A DNA stretch of 64,000 nucleotides from NCBI RefSeq assembly GCF_013404085.1, contig NZ_JABFHO010000001.1, positions 744,001 to 808,000 on the forward strand. The letters run 5' to 3'. How positions within the stretch are numbered: the stretch's first letter is position 1; the number at the start of each line of letters is the position of its first letter. The notes beneath the pieces are model-generated. The model did no database searches. It had not been told where the DNA came from and saw nothing but the letters and a program-made list of their open reading frames with translations. Origin of the DNA: Winogradskyella helgolandensis. GTDB lineage: Bacteria; Bacteroidota; Bacteroidia; Flavobacteriales; Flavobacteriaceae. Below are positions 24,100-32,035 of this stretch, piece after piece. Both the position numbers and the translations under genes were made by a program.

Positions 24100-24690
24100 A
24101 TGTTCACAGGTATTATAGAAGATCTCGGTACAATCGAAAAAATAAATAGAGATGGAGGAAATCTTCATATTACAGTACAAACCTCTATAACAAATGAATT
24201 AAAAATTGATCAAAGTGTTGCTCATAATGGTGTGTGTTTAACTGTTGTTGACATTGAAGGAGATACATATACAGTTACAGCTATCCAAGAAACGCTTGAC
24301 AAAACCAATTTAGGATTTCTAAAAGAAAATGAATTTGTAAATATAGAACGTGCTATGAAACTTGGCGATCGCTTAGATGGCCATATTGTTCAAGGTCATG
24401 TGGATCAGATTGCTACTTGTGCAGATATTATTACAAAAGATGGCAGTTGGGTTTTTACTTTTGAATATGATAAGAGCCTAAACAATATCACAATTGAAAA
24501 AGGATCTATTACAGTAAATGGAGTGAGTTTAACGGTTGTGAATTCTCAATTGAATCGTTTCTCTGTAGCCATTATACCTTATACATTTAATCATACGACC
24601 TTAAAAACAATAAAAGTTGGTGATACAATAAATTTAGAGTTTGATGTTATCGGAAAATATGTAAAGCGTCTTAATGACCTAAGAAATTAA
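24100..24690 (+). CDS. ribE: Riboflavin synthase alpha subunit
   Basis: A 196-residue protein of two lumazine-binding repeats: MFTGIIEDLGTIEKI with SVAHNGVCLTVVDIEGD in the first half and GHIVQGHVDQIA with ITVNGVSLTVVNSQLN in the second. It dismutates two molecules of 6,7-dimethyl-8-ribityllumazine to riboflavin. Length is normal. Its end overlaps by 4 nt the convergent small membrane gene. In some naming schemes the gene is ribC. Confidence 0.95.
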   Translation: MFTGIIEDLGTIEKINRDGGNLHITVQTSITNELKIDQSVAHNGVCLTVVDIEGDTYTVTAIQETLDKTNLGFLKENEFVNIERAMKLGDRLDGHIVQGHVDQIATCADIITKDGSWVFTFEYDKSLNNITIEKGSITVNGVSLTVVNSQLNRFSVAIIPYTFNHTTLKTIKVGDTINLEFDVIGKYVKRLNDLRN

Positions 24691-24896
24691 GCGTCTTTAA
24701 TAGATAATTTATAAGATTTATAAATACCATAGCATAATGCAAGGGCAAATAAAACAACTATTCCTGTATCAATAGGAAGGCCAGGTGGTGACGGTGGTGC
24801 TGGAGGAGGAGGAACCGATCCTGTAGTTTCCTGAGCCATAGAAGCGAAACCTACAAAAAAAACTAAGATTGAGACAAACATATTTTTCTTATGCAT
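24687..24896 (-). CDS. Small secreted protein with Pro-rich, PID-CTERM-like sorting tail
   Basis: A 69-residue protein with a signal peptide (about 1-22, ending ASMAQ), a short Pro-rich stretch, the motif PGLPIDTG, one hydrophobic span (VVLFALALCYGIY) and a basic tail KSYKLSIKDA. The signal peptide, P-x-ID motif, membrane span and basic tail resemble the short PID-CTERM sorting-domain proteins that I recall from Bacteroidota annotations. Almost nothing lies between the signal peptide and the tail, so it may be little more than a sorting signal. No processing enzyme is encoded nearby. The gene is convergent with ribE (4-nt overlap). Confidence 0.65.
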   Translation of the reverse strand: MHKKNMFVSILVFFVGFASMAQETTGSVPPPPAPPSPPGLPIDTGIVVLFALALCYGIYKSYKLSIKDA

Positions 24897-25127: not shown

Positions 25128-27626
25128 CTAAAAATAAATCCGCAAAACAGCATTAGTAGTAATACCTAAAGAATATCTAGAAAATTTTATCGGATTAGTC
25201 TCACCATCAATTCTATAATAATTATTTATTGGATTTTTGACATCGGATACATTCCATGCTGAAATACCCACTTCTGAACGTAACGCTTTATTTATTCTAA
25301 ATTTATAAAGTGCTGAAGCATCAATTCTAATGTATTCTTGCAATCTTTCGTTATTAGCGTTATCAAAATTTACGGCATCATTTATAACTTCACTACCTAT
25401 TAATGGTATCGATGTTGGTTTGCCAACTCTATAGTTAAGTCCTGCAGATATATTCCACGTATCATTACTATAGGTTGCACCAAATGTAAAAGCGTGGGTG
25501 ATATCAAAATTACTAGGAAACTCTATGTCTTCTAGAGTTTCAAAAGTGTAATCGTTTTTCATATAAGCGTAACTTAACCACATATTTAAATTATTGAAAT
25601 TTTTTCGGACTAAAAATTCAGCACCAAAAACATCATAGCTACCTTTTTCTTTTTCAAATTCATATTTGGTAGTGAAACTTTGGCTTTGTGTGGTAATGCC
25701 ATCTACGTTTTGATAATACCCTTTAACATCTAATAACCAACCTTTATTTTTATAAAGCAATCCTATTGACGCTTGTTTACTTTTAATAATAGGTATGCTA
25801 TCGTTATCCGTAAGTTGCCATCGTCGTTTTTCTACTCCTAGAAAATCATTTTGAAAATTGATAATTTGAGAGGTATTTTGATGTTTAAATTCGCCTAAAG
25901 CTTCTAATTCAAAATGATTTCCTAAAGCTTTTCTAATACTTAAACGAGGTTCTATAATTAATTCATCAAACTTTTCAATATAATTAACTCTAGATCCTAA
26001 TTTTACAATAAGATTTTTGTTTTCATTTTCGAACTTAGCGTGTGCAAAAACAGCTTGTTCTCTTAAAACTTCAGAGTCACGCCTAACAAATCGTGGCACA
26101 TCAATGTCGTTGAGATTTGTAATTTCAGATTCAATGAAATTATACCCTAAATTAAATTGCCATTGGTTTTGGGTATAAAACCCTTCTAGTTTTACAGACG
26201 TTTCAGACACTATGTTTTCTTGCAAGAAGCGCTGTTCTGCCATAATATTAGCATTGACCGCTTGTAACTTGTAATCTGTATTATAAATATTGAGAACTGT
26301 GCTCAAGTTATCGTTCCATTGTCGTTTATAATTTAAACCTGCAGAAATACTCTTTTGAGAAATACTACTTTCTCGTGTTTCCTGTATACCATTAAAAAGT
26401 GCAGATTCATCAAAAGTTAAATCATTGTGTACGAGAAGAAAATTTAATCGTATAAAATCCTTATTCGTTGGGTTGTAAAGCCATCGTAAAGAGCTATCAT
26501 AAAAATCGAAAGATTGATTTGAATTGGAAACACTAGTTGTATTTTCTTCTATTTCTGTGTCTTGCGTAACACGTTTAAAATAGGTTTCATAAGTTGGTGT
26601 GCGCACCAATTCATCTATAGATTTCCGTCCTGCAATTTGAACCGAAGATTTTTCGCCAATAGGTAGATTCAAAAATAAATCGGCATTAAGAAGGTTAAGA
26701 CCAAAGGAACCTTCAAAACTAGAGTCAATATTTTTATTAGATCGCATATCAATTGTTCCTGAAACACCATCAGTATAAGAAGCATCTGTTCCGTTATTAA
26801 TAACCGTTGCTGTTTGTGTCATCTGTGGATTAAAGCTTGAAATCAATCCGAAAAAATGACTAGATTGATACATTTTAATGCCATCCCAAAGCAATAAATT
26901 TTGATCGTTAGAACCTCCTCTTATATTAATATTAGAAACCGTTTCATCTACACTTATCACACTTGGCAATGCTTGAACAGTTTGTAACACATCAGACTCA
27001 ATAAGTCCTGGCAACAGCGTGAACTTACTATAATCAATAGCGATACTTCCATCTCGCTGTTTGTCTATACCTTTTATAATATAACCGTTGAGTACTACAG
27101 AACTAAACACTTCTGCTTCTTCTATGAGCGTTATAGACTCACAACTATTAAGATTAAAAAACTCGGCTTGACGCTCTATGGTTTTAAAACCAATAAATCG
27201 GATGGTTAAAATAGCATCTACTGAAGGTATTTCAATTTCAAAATAACCTTCCTCATTGGTAACAGCATAATTACTTTTTGTATTAATTGTTGCTCCATAA
27301 AGTGGATTGTCTAAACGGTCTCGTACATAACCACAAACAGTAATCATTTCTGTGATAGAGATCACCACATCACTAATCTTCCTAAATTTTAAATGGGTTT
27401 GCTGTTCTAAGTTTTTAATTTTAGCCTTAAGACTTATGCTACTAGATATAGGAATTACATTAATATTTTTAAGAAGATCACTTTTATAATTAAAAGTGAT
27501 GTTGTGCGCCTTAGAAATATCATTGAGTGCATCTATTATTGAAACTTTTTCGTCATTAGTTTGCGCGCTCACAGAAAGACAACACAAGAAACTTACTAGA
27601 AAAGTAATCCAATCAATTTTTAACAT
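25128..27626 (-). CDS. TonB-dependent outer membrane receptor with N-terminal signalling (STN) domain
   Basis: An 832-residue receptor: signal peptide (about 1-22), an STN/secretin-TonB N-terminal domain (about 25-90, ALNDISKAHNITFNYKSDLL), a carboxypeptidase-like regulatory beta-sandwich (about 93-170, VCGYVRDRLDNPLYGATI), a plug (about 185-295, SVISVDETVSNINIRGGSND) and a 22-strand barrel ending RYSLGITTNAVLRIYF. The STN domain marks a transducer that talks to a FecR anti-sigma factor; fecR overlaps it by 14 nt. No SusD-like partner follows, which argues against a polysaccharide system and favours a metal, siderophore or peptide ligand. The ligand is unknown. Confidence 0.88.
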   Translation of the reverse strand: MLKIDWITFLVSFLCCLSVSAQTNDEKVSIIDALNDISKAHNITFNYKSDLLKNINVIPISSSISLKAKIKNLEQQTHLKFRKISDVVISITEMITVCGYVRDRLDNPLYGATINTKSNYAVTNEEGYFEIEIPSVDAILTIRFIGFKTIERQAEFFNLNSCESITLIEEAEVFSSVVLNGYIIKGIDKQRDGSIAIDYSKFTLLPGLIESDVLQTVQALPSVISVDETVSNINIRGGSNDQNLLLWDGIKMYQSSHFFGLISSFNPQMTQTATVINNGTDASYTDGVSGTIDMRSNKNIDSSFEGSFGLNLLNADLFLNLPIGEKSSVQIAGRKSIDELVRTPTYETYFKRVTQDTEIEENTTSVSNSNQSFDFYDSSLRWLYNPTNKDFIRLNFLLVHNDLTFDESALFNGIQETRESSISQKSISAGLNYKRQWNDNLSTVLNIYNTDYKLQAVNANIMAEQRFLQENIVSETSVKLEGFYTQNQWQFNLGYNFIESEITNLNDIDVPRFVRRDSEVLREQAVFAHAKFENENKNLIVKLGSRVNYIEKFDELIIEPRLSIRKALGNHFELEALGEFKHQNTSQIINFQNDFLGVEKRRWQLTDNDSIPIIKSKQASIGLLYKNKGWLLDVKGYYQNVDGITTQSQSFTTKYEFEKEKGSYDVFGAEFLVRKNFNNLNMWLSYAYMKNDYTFETLEDIEFPSNFDITHAFTFGATYSNDTWNISAGLNYRVGKPTSIPLIGSEVINDAVNFDNANNERLQEYIRIDASALYKFRINKALRSEVGISAWNVSDVKNPINNYYRIDGETNPIKFSRYSLGITTNAVLRIYF

Positions 27627-28518
27627 TACGGATCGTTACCTTTTCGTTATTTATAATACTATAGGTCAAACCAAGTGGCTGGGAAATAGATTTTAAAGCA
27701 CTATTAAGATTGTTGTGCTCAAATGCACCTGTAAACCTTAAATTGTTAGCACTAATTGAATCTGTAACGCTAATATTATATTGATTTTCAAGTTCTAAAA
27801 GAACCGCTTTAATTGGTGCATCTTTAAATACACTCATCTTTTTAAGCCAATACGGTTCTGCAATTGCAACATTAGATTTTTGAGCCTTTCCTGAAACTAA
27901 AATAAACTCTGAACCTGCAGGCAATTGAATAGCCTCATCATTATAACGCACTTCTACTAAACCTTCATAGCAGGTAACTTTAAAAATACTGTCTTTGGAT
28001 AGCACATTAAACTCTGTACCTAAAACACTCACTTTTCCAAGTGTAGTAGTGACGTCGAAACGCTTTCCTTTTTCAACATCAAAAAAAGCTTCCCCTTTCA
28101 GGTTTAGCGTTCTTTCGTTTTTCCAATTTGAAGAATTGTAGTCAAGTTGGGATAATTCATTAAGTTCTACTCTAGAATTATCAGGAAGTGTAATCGTTTC
28201 TTTTTGTGCTAAATCGGTTGAAATTATATTGGTATTATCTTTATTCAAAAATAAAAATAGTGCTAAACCAATTACAAAAATGGCTGCAAATCTTGAAGCT
28301 ACTTTCATCCAATTGAAAGGTGTTGCTTTTTTATCTTGTAATCGTTTATCTAAAGTTTCAAAAGCCGGAACTTTTGCCTGATGATGGGCACCAAATCGTT
28401 GCGCTTCATCTACAATTTCTTCATACAGCTTTGCATCATCTAAAGCCTTAAAAGCTTTTGCTTCCGCTTCAGATAAGTCATTATCCAACCATTTTTTTAA
28501 TAAATATTCTTTGTCCAT
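27613..28518 (-). CDS. FecR-family anti-sigma factor
   Basis: A 301-residue single-span protein: an N-terminal cytoplasmic sigma-binding part (1-70), a membrane helix at about 73-92, then the periplasmic FecR domain (KETITLPDNSRVELNELSQLDYNS, LKGEAFFDVEKGKRFDVTT) and a C-terminal DUF4974-like domain (APIKAVLLELENQYNISVTD) similar to the receptor STN fold. It should hold the ECF sigma factor until the receptor signals. It overlaps the receptor gene by 14 nt and is preceded by a copy of the shared promoter-like motif. Confidence 0.92.
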   Translation of the reverse strand: MDKEYLLKKWLDNDLSEAEAKAFKALDDAKLYEEIVDEAQRFGAHHQAKVPAFETLDKRLQDKKATPFNWMKVASRFAAIFVIGLALFLFLNKDNTNIISTDLAQKETITLPDNSRVELNELSQLDYNSSNWKNERTLNLKGEAFFDVEKGKRFDVTTTLGKVSVLGTEFNVLSKDSIFKVTCYEGLVEVRYNDEAIQLPAGSEFILVSGKAQKSNVAIAEPYWLKKMSVFKDAPIKAVLLELENQYNISVTDSISANNLRFTGAFEHNNLNSALKSISQPLGLTYSIINNEKVTIRNVKN

Positions 28519-28527
28519 AACTCGATG

Positions 28528-28563
28528 TTATACTTATAAAACAACTCAATGTTTAATTGTCCC
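28528..28563 (-). promoter_or_regulatory. Shared ECF-type motif, copy A (upstream of fecR)
   Basis: In the 54 nt between the sigma-factor stop and the fecR ATG the minus strand reads GGGACA, 11 nt, AGTTGTT, TTATA, AGTATAA. The same blocks occur twice on the plus strand upstream of the acidic lipoproteins with identical 11-nt spacing. It is probably a promoter or operator of the ECF sigma regulon; this is inferred from conservation alone. Confidence 0.6.
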
Positions 28564-28572
28564 AGAATTATT

Positions 28573-29091
28573 TCAATTAAGTTCTTCTAACTGGTCTTTC
28601 AACTTACTTAAAGCCGCATAAATTCTATGTTCAGCGACCTTTTTGGTGACATTTAATAATTCACCTATTTCTTTATGCGTTTTTCCATCAACCTTACTTA
28701 AAAGAAAAGCAACACGTTCTTCTTCTTTTAAAGTTGATAATGCCGTTTCATAGCGTTTTAGAAATTCCTTTTTACGCAACATAAATTCTGGAGTCTCATT
28801 GGTGTAATCCTTAGGCTTAACTTCTTGATGTTTAAATACAATATTTTGGTGCTTTACTTCATTTAGCATCATATTATTTGCAACCGTATATAAATAAGAT
28901 TTTGCAGCCTCAGGTGCTACTTTTGCGCAATTTTCCCATAATTTAATAAAGGCATCTTGCACTTTATCTGAAGGATTTAACAAATCCCCATACTTATAAT
29001 ATAAAATGTTACTCATACTCTGTGCATACTTTTCATAGAGTTTAGAAAAGCGCAATTTATCACAGATATCTTTGTGGAGCGACTTAGGCAA
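28573..29091 (-). CDS. ECF RNA polymerase sigma factor (FecI-like)
   Basis: A 172-residue ECF sigma factor. Region 2 lies at about 17-85 (YEKYAQSMSNILYYKYGD, DKVQDAFIKLWENC, YLYTVANNMMLNEVKHQN) and region 4 at about 112-168 (LKEEERVAFLLSKVDGKTHK, EIGELLNVTKKVAEHRIYAA), with the helix-turn-helix that reads -35 elements. No extra domains are present. It heads a sigma-fecR-receptor operon with the usual Bacteroidota gene order. A standard -7 box upstream suggests basal expression from the housekeeping sigma factor. Confidence 0.93.
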   Translation of the reverse strand: MPKSLHKDICDKLRFSKLYEKYAQSMSNILYYKYGDLLNPSDKVQDAFIKLWENCAKVAPEAAKSYLYTVANNMMLNEVKHQNIVFKHQEVKPKDYTNETPEFMLRKKEFLKRYETALSTLKEEERVAFLLSKVDGKTHKEIGELLNVTKKVAEHRIYAALSKLKDQLEELN

Positions 29092-29119
29092 TTAAAAATG
29101 ATTTTGAAATTTGAATATC

Positions 29120-29127
29120 CAAAAGTA
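29120..29127 (-). promoter_or_regulatory. -7 promoter element for the ECF sigma gene (TACTTTTG)
   Basis: Perfect TAnnTTTG match on the minus strand, 28 nt before the sigma ATG. The sigma gene thus looks driven by the primary sigma factor, unlike fecR and the lipoproteins, which carry the GGGACA-type motif. Confidence 0.5.
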
Positions 29128-29217
29128 TACTTTTTTAAAAGACCATAAAAAAGTTAGTGTTATTAAAATATCAAATTTAGATTTTAGAATTGAATTAGAA
29201 TTTGTTTTAAAAAATTT

Positions 29218-29253
29218 GGGATATTTTAATATGCAGTTGTTTTAAAACTATAA
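29218..29253 (+). promoter_or_regulatory. Shared ECF-type motif, copy C (distal)
   Basis: GGGATA, 11 nt, AGTTGTT, TTAAA, ACTATAA on the plus strand. It keeps the spacing of copies A and B with one change in each outer block. It lies 24 nt before a 22-codon reading frame and 209 nt before the first lipoprotein gene. Confidence 0.5.
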
Positions 29254-29277
29254 GCCCAATCTAAAACCTCACAAAAT

Positions 29278-29346
29278 ATGAATCAATCAACTGAAACTAA
29301 AAACTACGATTCAAAACCTAAAACAACTCGAAATACAATTAAATAA
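29278..29346 (+). CDS. Possible 22-residue leader peptide
   Basis: A short frame encoding a Lys/Thr/Asn-rich peptide (MNQSTETKNYDSKPK and a further TTRNTIK) begins 24 nt after motif copy C. It is hydrophilic, has no membrane span and resembles no known family. Its only support is position after a promoter-like motif; it may be chance in AT-rich DNA. Confidence 0.2.
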   Translation: MNQSTETKNYDSKPKTTRNTIK

Positions 29347-29367
29347 ATAAAAAATTAAAAATTTCTC

Positions 29368-29401
29368 GGGACATTTAATTACTAAGTTGTTCTAAGTATA
29401 A
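29368..29401 (+). promoter_or_regulatory. Shared ECF-type motif, copy B (upstream of acidic lipoproteins)
   Basis: GGGACA, 11 nt, AGTTGTT, CTA, AGTATAA on the plus strand, 60 nt before the first lipoprotein ATG. It matches copy A upstream of fecR block by block. If A is an ECF sigma promoter, this places the lipoproteins in the same regulon. Confidence 0.6.
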
Positions 29402-29461
29402 AAGCGGTAATTTAAGTGCCTTAATAAAAAACTTAACCATAATTATAAAAACAAATTAACA

Positions 29462-30544
29462 ATGAAAACTATCAAACCTTTACTTTTTGCCTTATTGGGT
29501 TTATTTCTAACAATGACGTCTTGTAGAACCGAAGACGATGTCAATATAGATCCACCTACAGAATCTATTTTACAACCTAATTCAGCGTTAGCAAGCCAGA
29601 TTCAGCTAGTCACCATGAACGATGGTTCTATCGATAATATCGTTTACAACGCGAATTGTTTTACCATTCAACTTCCACTTTCAGTAACCATTAATGGAGT
29701 AGAATTAACCATTACTAATGTTAATGATTATGACGATCTTGAAGATATTCTTGATGAATTTGATGACGATGACGATGATGTTGAGATTGCTTTTCCTATC
29801 ACAATCATTCTTGCAGATTATACTGAAATCCAAATCAACAGTTTAGACCAGTTAGAAGACTATGCTGACGATTGTAATGATGAAAATGAAATTGACGATG
29901 ATATAGAATGTTTAGATTTTGTATATCCTATCACTGCTTCACTATTTAATACCAGCAACGAAGTTGTGGCAACATTAACATTTACTAACGATTACGATCT
30001 GTATGAATTTATAGATGATATTGACGAAGATGATTTAATTGGATTTGAATTTCCTATAAGTATTGTCATAGCAGATGGTACCGAAATTGTAATCAATAAT
30101 TTTGACGATCTTGATAATGCTATTGACACTTATGGAGATGATTGTGATGAAGATGACGATTACGACCATGACGATGATGATTGTACCAATTGCACACCAA
30201 GTCAATTAGAATCAATTTTAACCGCTTGTTCTGGTTGGTACATAGACGAATTAGAACGTAATGATAATGACTTAGAAGACAACTATAATGGCTACTTATT
30301 TGATTTCTTCACTGATAATACAGTAACCGTAACTTGGAGTGGTAACACTGCAAATGGCACTTGGACAACTAGCGGAACAGGAAACAACATCACTGTAACC
30401 TTTGATATTCCAGGATTTGATGATATTAATGACACATGGTATTTAGATGAAATCGATAACGACGATGATGACAATGAAACTGAAGTAAGTTTTGAAATTG
30501 GTGATGATGACGAGTTAGAATTCAAAAACAATAATTGCAACTAA
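29462..30544 (+). CDS. Asp-rich lipoprotein with two internal repeats and a Cys-bounded C-terminal domain
   Basis: A 360-residue lipoprotein (lipobox LTMTSC, C21) of unknown family. Three Cys-bounded modules are visible: repeat 1 (C66-C138) and repeat 2 (C150-C228) share the plan beta-rich LPLSVTI/YPITASL, an Asp-rich loop, FPI-x-I-x-x-AD-x-TEI and a DDC end; then an Asp/His cluster (DDDYDHDDDDC) leads to C241-x-x-C244 and a beta-rich domain to C359. The acidity suggests binding of Ca2+ or another cation, but no EF-hand or TSP3 consensus is clear. It is divergent from the sigma-fecR-receptor operon and followed by a paralogue of its last domain. Confidence 0.85.
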   Translation: MKTIKPLLFALLGLFLTMTSCRTEDDVNIDPPTESILQPNSALASQIQLVTMNDGSIDNIVYNANCFTIQLPLSVTINGVELTITNVNDYDDLEDILDEFDDDDDDVEIAFPITIILADYTEIQINSLDQLEDYADDCNDENEIDDDIECLDFVYPITASLFNTSNEVVATLTFTNDYDLYEFIDDIDEDDLIGFEFPISIVIADGTEIVINNFDDLDNAIDTYGDDCDEDDDYDHDDDDCTNCTPSQLESILTACSGWYIDELERNDNDLEDNYNGYLFDFFTDNTVTVTWSGNTANGTWTTSGTGNNITVTFDIPGFDDINDTWYLDEIDNDDDDNETEVSFEIGDDDELEFKNNNCN

Positions 30545-30599
30545 TCCTAAAATTAAATAACAAACAAACCTTAAATTAAACATTATGAAATCACATATT

Positions 30600-31061
30600 A
30601 TGAAAACCCTATTTACACCTAAAACCTTATTAAGCGCACTACTAGTTTTTAGCTTATTATCTTGTTCTAATGACGATGATGATGACCATAACGACGATTG
30701 TAATACTTGTACTACGGAACAATTAGAAACTATTTTAACAGCTTGTTCAGATTGGTATATTGAAGATTTAGAACGAAATAATATCGATTTAGAAAGCAAT
30801 TATGTAGGTTACTTCTTTAATTTCTCAGCAGACAATACGGTTATTGTGACATGGGATGAAAATACAGCGAATGGCACTTGGACTACCAGCGGCACAGGAA
30901 ATAACATCAACGTAACCTTTAATATTCCAGATTTTGATGATATCAATACGACTTGGATATTAGATGAACTTGATAATGATGACAATGATAACGATGTTGA
31001 AGTAAGTTTTGAAATTGGTACTACTGACGATTTAGAATTCAAAAACAATACCTGTAATTAA
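30600..31061 (+). CDS. Asp-rich lipoprotein, paralogue of the preceding C-terminal domain
   Basis: A 153-residue lipoprotein (from ATG 30600; an ATG at 30585 adds five residues) with lipobox FSLLSC, a DDDDDHNDD cluster, then CNTC and a domain reading ILTACSDWYIEDLERN, NTANGTWTTSGTGNNINVTF and FKNNTC. These match the C-terminal domain of the upstream lipoprotein nearly residue for residue, and the two DNA stretches (30182-30541 and 30699-31058) are also alike, so this is a fairly recent tandem duplication. It is co-directional with a 55-nt gap and ends before a terminator. Function unknown; probably the same ligand as its neighbour. Confidence 0.85.
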   Translation: MKTLFTPKTLLSALLVFSLLSCSNDDDDDHNDDCNTCTTEQLETILTACSDWYIEDLERNNIDLESNYVGYFFNFSADNTVIVTWDENTANGTWTTSGTGNNINVTFNIPDFDDINTTWILDELDNDDNDNDVEVSFEIGTTDDLEFKNNTCN

Positions 31062-31115
31062 TCACCTTAATTACAAAGTTCTAATTTAAGTTTCCAAACT
31101 TAATTAATAGCAGAG

Positions 31116-31148
31116 CCAACCTTGAAGAAATTCTTGGTTGGTTTTTTT
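31116..31148 (+). terminator. Intrinsic terminator after the lipoprotein pair
   Basis: Stem CCAACC / GGTTGG, with a further GAA/TTC pairing inside, followed by seven T residues. Single-direction (plus). Confidence 0.75.
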
Positions 31149-31180
31149 ATTATGGACATAAAAATATTATAAAAGCTCTA

Positions 31181-32035
31181 CTACTCTTTAATACCCATTT
31201 TTATAGCCTCATAGACCAATTTAACCTCAGCCTCTCCATACTTTCGCTCTAAACGCCTAATGGTAAAATGTGCCGTTGCCATATTCTGAAAGTGATCTAC
31301 AAAAACATAATTTAAACCACCTCCTCCAATGGCTCCAACAATAGGTACAGCTTGCGCCAAAAATTTCTCGCTAATGAGAAGACTTAATCTTGTCGCAATT
31401 TTAGATAAAAAATTACCCACAGCATTAGACCCCAAAGCACTTGCTCCTTTTACTAAACTCTCTAAGCTCATTTTTATGCCTGCTGTTGAGACATTATTTA
31501 AAGCCGAATTCAATGCCAAACGTGTGGTGTAATAACTAGCTTCCATGCCATCATCATCTAATGAATCTCCTCCAAGCGCAAAAACTTGCAGACATGCCAT
31601 TTGACCTTCTAAAGTGTAGATATCTTCACCTTCGCTTCGTGCTATATCCATAATGGTACGCATTAAAAACTTAGTGGTAATCGTAACTTCTGATGCAAAA
31701 ATAGCAGTTCCAAACCCCGTAGACGATCCAAAAAAACCACTTAAAGCTCCTGTACCAGTGACAATACTTTTATAAGTGTTTTTTGAAGGCTTTTTAAAAG
31801 TTTTGTTTTTTTGAATGGTTAATAAATTAGCTTTTATAATTTTTAATAATACAGATTCTGTAATCTTCTGCACTTTAACTAATACTTTTTCTGGTACGTA
31901 GCTAACTCCTGTTTCAACCGTATTACCAATTTTATTGACATTACGAATGGCCCAACCTAAATTTTGCATGCTAGATTTTGCGTGCACTAAGGCTTCTTTG
32001 TCTTCTGGTGATATGGGATTTGCTGTTAGATTCAA
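31181..32035 (-). CDS. EcsC-family protein
   Basis: A 284-residue protein with the EcsC-domain pattern: a basic N-terminal helix region, then a Gly/Ala-rich hydrophobic stretch (SIVTGTGALSGFFGSSTGFG), FLMRTIMDIARSEGEDIY, ALGG near residue 155, and a second hydrophobic segment AVPIVGAIGGGGLNYVFVDH. The family is named for the third gene of the Bacillus ecs ABC-transporter operon; its biochemical role is unsettled. No ABC genes are next to it here. It is a single gene, convergent with the lipoproteins. Confidence 0.78.
   Translation of the reverse strand: MNLTANPISPEDKEALVHAKSSMQNLGWAIRNVNKIGNTVETGVSYVPEKVLVKVQKITESVLLKIIKANLLTIQKNKTFKKPSKNTYKSIVTGTGALSGFFGSSTGFGTAIFASEVTITTKFLMRTIMDIARSEGEDIYTLEGQMACLQVFALGGDSLDDDGMEASYYTTRLALNSALNNVSTAGIKMSLESLVKGASALGSNAVGNFLSKIATRLSLLISEKFLAQAVPIVGAIGGGGLNYVFVDHFQNMATAHFTIRRLERKYGEAEVKLVYEAIKMGIKE

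Follow-up and report, generated by a model that had tools for sequence, protein, structure and literature searches.

The Winogradskyella helgolandensis locus described here carries three copies of a bipartite motif that are, in all probability, promoters of the FecI-type ECF sigma factor encoded beside them; the activity of this factor would be gated by FecR and a TonB-dependent receptor, and its output would feed back on these sensor genes and extend to a divergent pair of lipoprotein genes, lipA and lipB. The motif occurs nowhere else in the genome, is kept at the same two places in more than 100 related loci, and differs between loci in step with the adjoining sigma factor. Our analysis covered the window, by which we mean the whole stretch of 64,000 nucleotides, and the complete genome of 4,598,621 bases (4.6 Mb).

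Organisation of the locus

The combination of a FecI-type sigma factor with FecR and a TonB receptor is common in the Bacteroidota. In the window the corresponding genes lie on the minus strand, divergently from the lipoprotein genes, with the following features:

25128..27626, minus strand: TonB-dependent receptor, candidate transducer (Plug and CarbopepD_reg_2 domains)
27613..28518, minus strand: fecR, anti-sigma factor or regulator (FecR and FecR_C domains, one strongly hydrophobic segment)
28528..28563, minus strand: motif copy 1, predicted fecR-receptor promoter, lodged in the sigma-fecR gap
28573..29091, minus strand: FecI-type ECF sigma gene (TTG start; Sigma70_r2 and Sigma70_r4_2 domains)
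29120..29127, minus strand: housekeeping-type -7 box TACTTTTG (TAnnTTTG) upstream of the sigma gene, read from the sequence
29218..29253, plus strand: motif copy 2, predicted to be the promoter of a small gene, since deleted, whose relic lies downstream
29278..29346, plus strand: relic of a small helical-protein gene, 22 codons, from alignment with relatives
29368..29401, plus strand: motif copy 3, upstream of lipA, predicted to drive lipA-lipB in a sigma-dependent manner
29462..30544, plus strand: lipA, acidic lipoprotein, predicted to be surface exposed, with a putative lipocalin-like C-terminal domain
30585..31061, plus strand: lipB, another acidic lipoprotein, which duplicates the lipA C-terminal domain

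The domain matches of the sigma factor (Sigma70_r2, E 2.3e-9; Sigma70_r4_2, E 4.5e-12) are above cut-off. Its top NCBIfam match is TIGR02985 (Bacteroidetes ECF family 1), to which it is related, but as the score of 90.6 bits falls below the curated cut-off of 126.4 it is not filed as a member. The fecR product matches FecR (E 1.3e-18) and FecR_C (E 5.2e-11), and its hydropathy reaches a 19-residue maximum of 2.38 from residue 73. A domain search of the window receptor returned Plug and no match to STN or FecR_C; among eight orthologous receptors scanned, five have an N-terminal FecR_C match (E 8e-6 to 0.0015), of which only that of L049 is above cut-off, and two have an STN match below cut-off. 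Behind the receptor gene, at 24687-24896 on the minus strand, a small protein is encoded whose match to the PID-CTERM sorting domain falls narrowly short of the cut-off (25.9 bits against 26). The genome contains three FecR genes, those of the window and of two further loci, L182 and L183. The L183 region (G000:C1:1024000-1036000), which holds the third, has the order fecR, sigma, then a receptor-like gene.

The motif and its occurrence in the genome

The first-pass annotation had reported the pattern GGGAYA-N11-AGTTGTT-N3-5-ASTATAA at 28563-28528 on the minus strand and at 29218-29253 and 29368-29401 on the plus strand. All three copies are present with the same 11-nt spacing, and there are no others in the window or in 100 dinucleotide shuffles of it. 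The genome-wide scan that it had called for returned the same three matches, all at this locus, in 4,598,621 bases, and the reversed-pattern control gave none. The third block, ASTATAA, did not hold up as part of the motif: it is a local tail outside the core kept in relatives, which is RGGA-N13-AGTTGTTnTA. A relaxed, tail-less genome scan with GGGAYANTTN8AGTTGTTNTA gave three exact matches and 0, 3 and 63 matches with one, two and three mismatches; this total of 69, set against 71 in the reversed-pattern control, leaves nothing beyond chance.

In copy 1 the putative -35 element GGGACA occupies 28563-28558 and the putative -10 element AGTTGTT 28546-28540, and the core ends 18 nt upstream of the fecR ATG. 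The same distance from core to ATG is found in 57 of 108 loci, and 73 of 112 loci place the start of the -35 block 2 nt past the sigma stop codon. Copy 3 is the best preserved one over five Winogradskyella loci: invariant positions make up 6/6 of the outer block, 10/11 of the spacer and 6/7 of the box, as against 202/370 overall; copy 2 was left out of this scoring, as L186 is misaligned around it.

Conservation at homologous loci

When lipB was used as the query, 149 of 299 family genomes had a match, and the matches fell into two tiers of similarity. Places in the upper portion of the match list were fetched, 40 in all, in 38 of which lipA is divergent from a sigma gene; fecR comes next in 37 of these, and in the remaining one the contig ends earlier. 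A second set consisted of the best 80 of 388 relatives from a lipA-alignment scan of named genomes, for which lipA similarity was the sole criterion; every one of the 80 shows the receptor-fecR-sigma arrangement with divergent lipA. The two sets overlap, and the distinct loci number 113. Agreement with the core is as follows (regions with 0/1/2/3 mismatches):

First set plus window, sigma-fecR gaps: 24/8/4/2 of 38
First set plus window, lipA upstream regions: 23/10/4/2 of 39
Second set plus five further loci (85), sigma-fecR gaps: 59/20/4/2
Second set plus five further loci (85), lipA upstream regions: 44/30/8/3
Distinct loci, sigma-fecR gaps: 75/25/8/4 of 112
Distinct loci, lipA upstream regions: 62/37/9/5 of 113

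Shuffling of the first set produced no exact core in 3,800 gaps or in 3,900 lipA upstream regions, and with the spacer shortened from 13 to 12 bases there was no match at any sigma locus. With up to two mismatches allowed, the core is present in 108 of 112 sigma-fecR gaps, the comparison that the first-pass annotation had proposed, in 108 of 113 lipA upstream regions, and at both sites in 105 of 112 loci. The regions with three mismatches (4/112 gaps and 5/113 lipA upstream regions) count against a promoter reading. The loci L338 to L342 carry the motif at both places in all five cases. The first-pass annotation had named many unrelated genomic matches, or a lack of conservation at homologous loci, as grounds for abandoning its proposal, and neither was found. 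Its central claim, that one ECF-type promoter motif is common to fecR and a divergent lipoprotein gene, is supported by a motif that homologous loci keep and that is nearly absent elsewhere.

The second plus-strand copy

The motif had been described as preceding divergent acidic lipoproteins twice. There are indeed two plus-strand copies; both precede lipA, and the extra one serves no second lipoprotein, lipB lying 40 nt behind lipA with no motif copy of its own. Among 122 lipA upstream regions of distinct sequence, 22 contain at least two cores (up to two mismatches), and in 12 of these 22 (L186, L035, L187, L188, L195, L204, L213, L225, L231, L236, L238 and L243) homologous frames of 75-85 amino acids, lacking a signal peptide, lie between the copies. 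This family of small helical proteins has no Pfam match above cut-off. The nearest relative to retain the gene is W. vidalii (L186, 78 amino acids); in the window, L184, L185 and L224 an internal deletion has cut it to 22 codons, its beginning and 3' end being still recognisable in the alignment. In view of the relic and of the genes that relatives hold between the copies, copy 2 is probably a promoter left behind when this lineage deleted a small gene, and could still feed lipA by read-through; copy 3, given its invariant positions, is best seen as the predicted lipA promoter.

The sigma gene and its own promoter

The sigma gene had been credited with an ordinary -7 box in place of the motif, and this is what we find, the box being TACTTTTG at 29127-29120 on the minus strand. 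A search confined to the sigma upstream region found TAnnTTTR within 70 nt of the gene in 93 of 113 distinct loci; the opposite strand has it in 15 of 113, and shuffled sequences in 21%. In Flavobacterium psychrophilum the -7 consensus of the housekeeping factor is TAnnTTTG (PMC9723704), and because a box of this type precedes it the sigma gene appears to be driven by the housekeeping factor. The first residue is encoded by TTG in 92 of 113 distinct loci (29091 in the window); perhaps this conserved weak start limits the amount of sigma factor.

The proposal of an autoregulated ECF promoter thus stands in part. An ECF-type motif is common to fecR and the lipoprotein gene, but the sigma gene, which lacks the motif and has a housekeeping-type box, would not be the autoregulated gene; what lies behind the motif are the anti-sigma factor, receptor and lipoprotein genes.

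Matching differences between sigma factors and motifs

Three versions of the motif with equal spacing can be distinguished: TGGGAcA..AGTTGTT (group A), TCAGGA..AGTTGTT (group B) and GTAGGA..AnCTGTT (group C). In a set of 85 loci, TGGGA is present at the fecR site in all 18 whose sigma factor is at least 70% identical to that of the window and in none of the 67 below this value, sigma identity serving here as a check that is independent of the motif. The residue comparison included 22 group A sigmas, 91 group B sigmas and 37 aligned group C rows; the motif itself was the criterion that separated groups A and B, the search cut-off for group C also admits other groups, and the 37 rows include one duplicate (L182 and L294 are the same locus). 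The commonest residues in groups A, B and C are K, K and A at position 80; T, K and R at 138; H, Y and K at 155; and A, S and G at 159.

Residue i of the window sigma aligns with residue i+16 of SigW, so that residues 155 and 159 correspond to SigW T171 and R175, and residue 138 to S154. In SigW, T171 and R175 contact -35 bases and S154 contacts the backbone (PMC6713349). Histidine at position 155 goes with G as the first motif base at 46 of 46 sites, and tyrosine with A at 171 of 177; the two B-side sigmas with H155 (L237 and L262) each have G as first base at both of their sites. Lysine at position 80 goes with T in the -10 element at 222 of 225 A and B sites and at all four sites of two clade C loci. 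Alanine goes with C at 58 of 68 sites, and with T, against the co-variation, at 7 of 68. In the two group C sigmas with K80 (L310 and L320), and also in L342, T replaces C at both -10 sites. On the tree there are two independent changes at residue 155 and between one (well supported) and four at residue 80, too few for a sign test to reach 0.05. A code for residue 159 was also tried: L038 and L205, which combine CAGGGA sites with K/R159, predicted K or R in G017, which has C. This prediction having failed, no code is claimed for residue 159.

Different versions also occur side by side within single genomes. In W. helgolandensis itself one further system is found:

G000:C1:1924000-1940000: L182, related system, sigma-fecR-receptor with a divergent lipA-like lipoprotein gene

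Its products share 53% (sigma), 44% (FecR), 39% (receptor) and 30% (divergent lipoprotein) identity with those of the window, and at the same two places it carries the version GTAGGA-N13-AnCTGTT, as GTAGGA-N13-AGCTGTTATA and GTAGGA-N13-AACTGTTTTA. In the genome G085 all three versions coexist, each next to a sigma gene of its own: A at L035, B at L052 and a C-like version at L342. Such matching of sigma factor and promoter may let several surface-signalling channels run together unmixed. A broader proposal, to which we give a little less than an even chance as a whole, is that the Flavobacteriaceae possess as many as three such channels, which share an origin and run in parallel, insulated from one another. 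In every channel a FecI-like sigma factor, FecR and a TonB transducer would be joined by an acidic surface lipoprotein of the lipocalin type; each channel would have its own dialect (TGGGA..AGTTGTT, TCAGGA..AGTTGTT or GTAGGA..AnCTGTT), set by sigma residues 80, 138, 155 and 159, and would command surface lipoproteins and not an import operon.

Sites away from the locus

From sequence matches, the regulon in W. helgolandensis would be the locus itself and at most one weak candidate. A weak group A-like site, L346 (G000:C1:4043879), has AGGTGTT for AGTTGTT, with similar sequences in two relatives, and lies 38 nt before the gene of an exported protein of 1,142 amino acids, a possible fourth target that we list as a candidate only. 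No remote group A site was consistent across the 12 genomes compared.

The exact B-type pattern occurs 33 times in 299 family genomes, 30 times at loci with this sigma factor; the other three matches are in G156, G201 and G230, those in the latter two preceding lipoprotein genes. Remote B-type sites were scored for 34 of 36 sites away from a sigma gene, with 30 wrong-spacing matches with loci as the control; two sites within a few kilobases of a sigma gene were left out (G231:C33:8526, which precedes a lipoprotein gene, and G270:C2:122874, with no ORF behind it). Of the remote sites, 24/34 are intergenic, with an ORF immediately downstream in 16 cases, as against 6/30 intergenic and none before an ORF for wrong spacing (Fisher, p 6e-5 for intergenic position). 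The ORFs behind the 16 sites look exported in 14 cases and have a lipobox by rule in 8 (Fisher, p 0.005 for lipobox); in these automatic calls the lipobox rule overlooked L163, and L169 was scored as genic owing to an opposing ORF. Targets include DUF4382 and Fib_succ_major lipoproteins; not every site follows this pattern, some falling inside genes and others lying ahead of genes for cytoplasmic proteins. In W. helgolandensis the group C motif, too, is followed by genes for exported proteins at the three places inspected, L343, L344 and L345 (G000:C1:1963954, 722857 and 1531697), two of the three targets being lipoprotein-like, and the L343 site recurs in all six Winogradskyella genomes searched.

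The lipoproteins

The lipA product is 98% identical in its best segment to its counterpart in W. psychrotolerans E3R09, and lipB is 72% identical to the lipA C-terminal domain over the matched part. In 18 aligned LipA proteins S20, C21, R22 and E24 are invariant, the sequence after the lipobox being mostly CRTEE, CRTED or CRKEE. A lipoprotein export signal, C-X-K-(D/E)2, has been defined in Capnocytophaga (PMC5080379), and the closeness of the LipA start to this signal makes surface exposure plausible. In the structure model (pLDDT 81.5, pTM 0.51) residues 235-360 are predicted to form a lipocalin-like barrel, and an acidic stretch, residues 228-241, hints at cation binding. That LipA is a surface binding protein working with the receptor is a guess, which may equally well prove right or wrong.

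Proposed mechanism and alternative explanations

We propose that the three sites act as -35/-10 promoters for RNA polymerase carrying the adjacent FecI-type sigma factor, with a -35 element TGGGA, a -10 element AGTTGTTnTA and 13 nt from GGA to the -10 block, transcription presumably starting downstream. The sigma factor would be made from its housekeeping-type promoter, probably at a low level given this promoter and the TTG start. FecR would retain it until the TonB-dependent receptor signals the presence of a ligand through an N-terminal signalling domain; that the window receptor matches neither STN nor FecR_C speaks against this scheme. Once released, it would raise expression of fecR and the receptor gene, a feedback on the sensor and not on the sigma factor, and also of lipA-lipB, whose lipoproteins are predicted to face outward.

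Bipartite sites can be bound by proteins other than sigma factors, and the link to the sigma factor rests on the motif and its co-variation; the motif could in principle be bound by a conventional transcription factor, or a response regulator, whose gene lies at another place and which co-regulates housekeeping promoters of fecR and the lipoprotein genes. We consider this unlikely, as in 105 of the 112 distinct loci both places show the same fixed spacing and orientation toward the gene, a spacing one base shorter yields no match at sigma loci, and the motif version tracks the adjoining sigma factor even between related systems in one genome. It is somewhat less likely still that the sites are ECF-type promoters read by another sigma factor, or by several among which the local one is merely included. 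Overlapping ECF regulons are known (PMC9723704) and clades A and B have the same -10 element, but the sites are almost confined to the locus of this sigma factor, and co-resident related loci carry different versions. As the sites fall within short untranslated stretches, they might instead represent a structured or leader RNA element common to the messages, an idea to which we attach hardly any weight: the interval 27500-31500 has no Rfam match at gathering level (two snoRNA models, E 0.17 and 0.25, fall below it, inside lipA), the distances of 2 nt from the sigma stop codon to the -35 half (73/112 loci) and of 18 nt from the core to the fecR ATG (57/108) recur, and most spacer positions are not conserved.

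Comparison with known systems

Recognition by the adjacent sigma factor would give the locus a resemblance to the Has system (HasI-HasS-HasR), which likewise combines a sigma factor, an anti-sigma factor and a TonB-type receptor and has a non-autoregulated sigma gene and a sigma-dependent promoter for the anti-sigma gene: in Serratia marcescens HasI drives hasS and not itself (PMC9249621). The Has system, however, produces a hemophore for heme and takes it up, whereas the divergent target in Winogradskyella is an acidic lipoprotein; the motif differs, and in Winogradskyella fecR and the receptor gene appear to lie under one promoter region. The E. coli Fec system (FecI-FecR-FecA) has a similar gene set, and there too the sigma factor comes from a housekeeping promoter (PMC9249621), but fecIR is not autoregulated, FecI driving fecABCDE and not fecR, whereas the Winogradskyella motif precedes fecR and the lipoprotein genes, with no transport operon seen behind it. 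Judged from the arrangement of sites, the wiring is of the HasI kind rather than the E. coli Fec kind.

Within the same bacterial family, SM6 of Flavobacterium psychrophilum also represents ECF-type promoters, but its -10 box is CGT and it stands upstream of T9SS genes (PMC9723704), whereas the Winogradskyella versions have AGTTGTT or AnCTGTT and precede fecR and lipoprotein genes. SM6, which is of another type, was the single flavobacterial ECF motif met in the literature consulted, and the titles, abstract openings and passages searched contain no description of a promoter motif for a FecI-type sigma factor of the Bacteroidota. The locus is, on the evidence of its genes and sites, a variant of FecI/FecR cell-surface signalling with promoter dialects of its own. 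It supplies a well-defined motif, a regulon of small predicted size and sigma-promoter pairs that vary naturally inside single genomes, which make promoter recognition, insulation between related systems and the role of an uncharacterised family of acidic lipoproteins directly testable.
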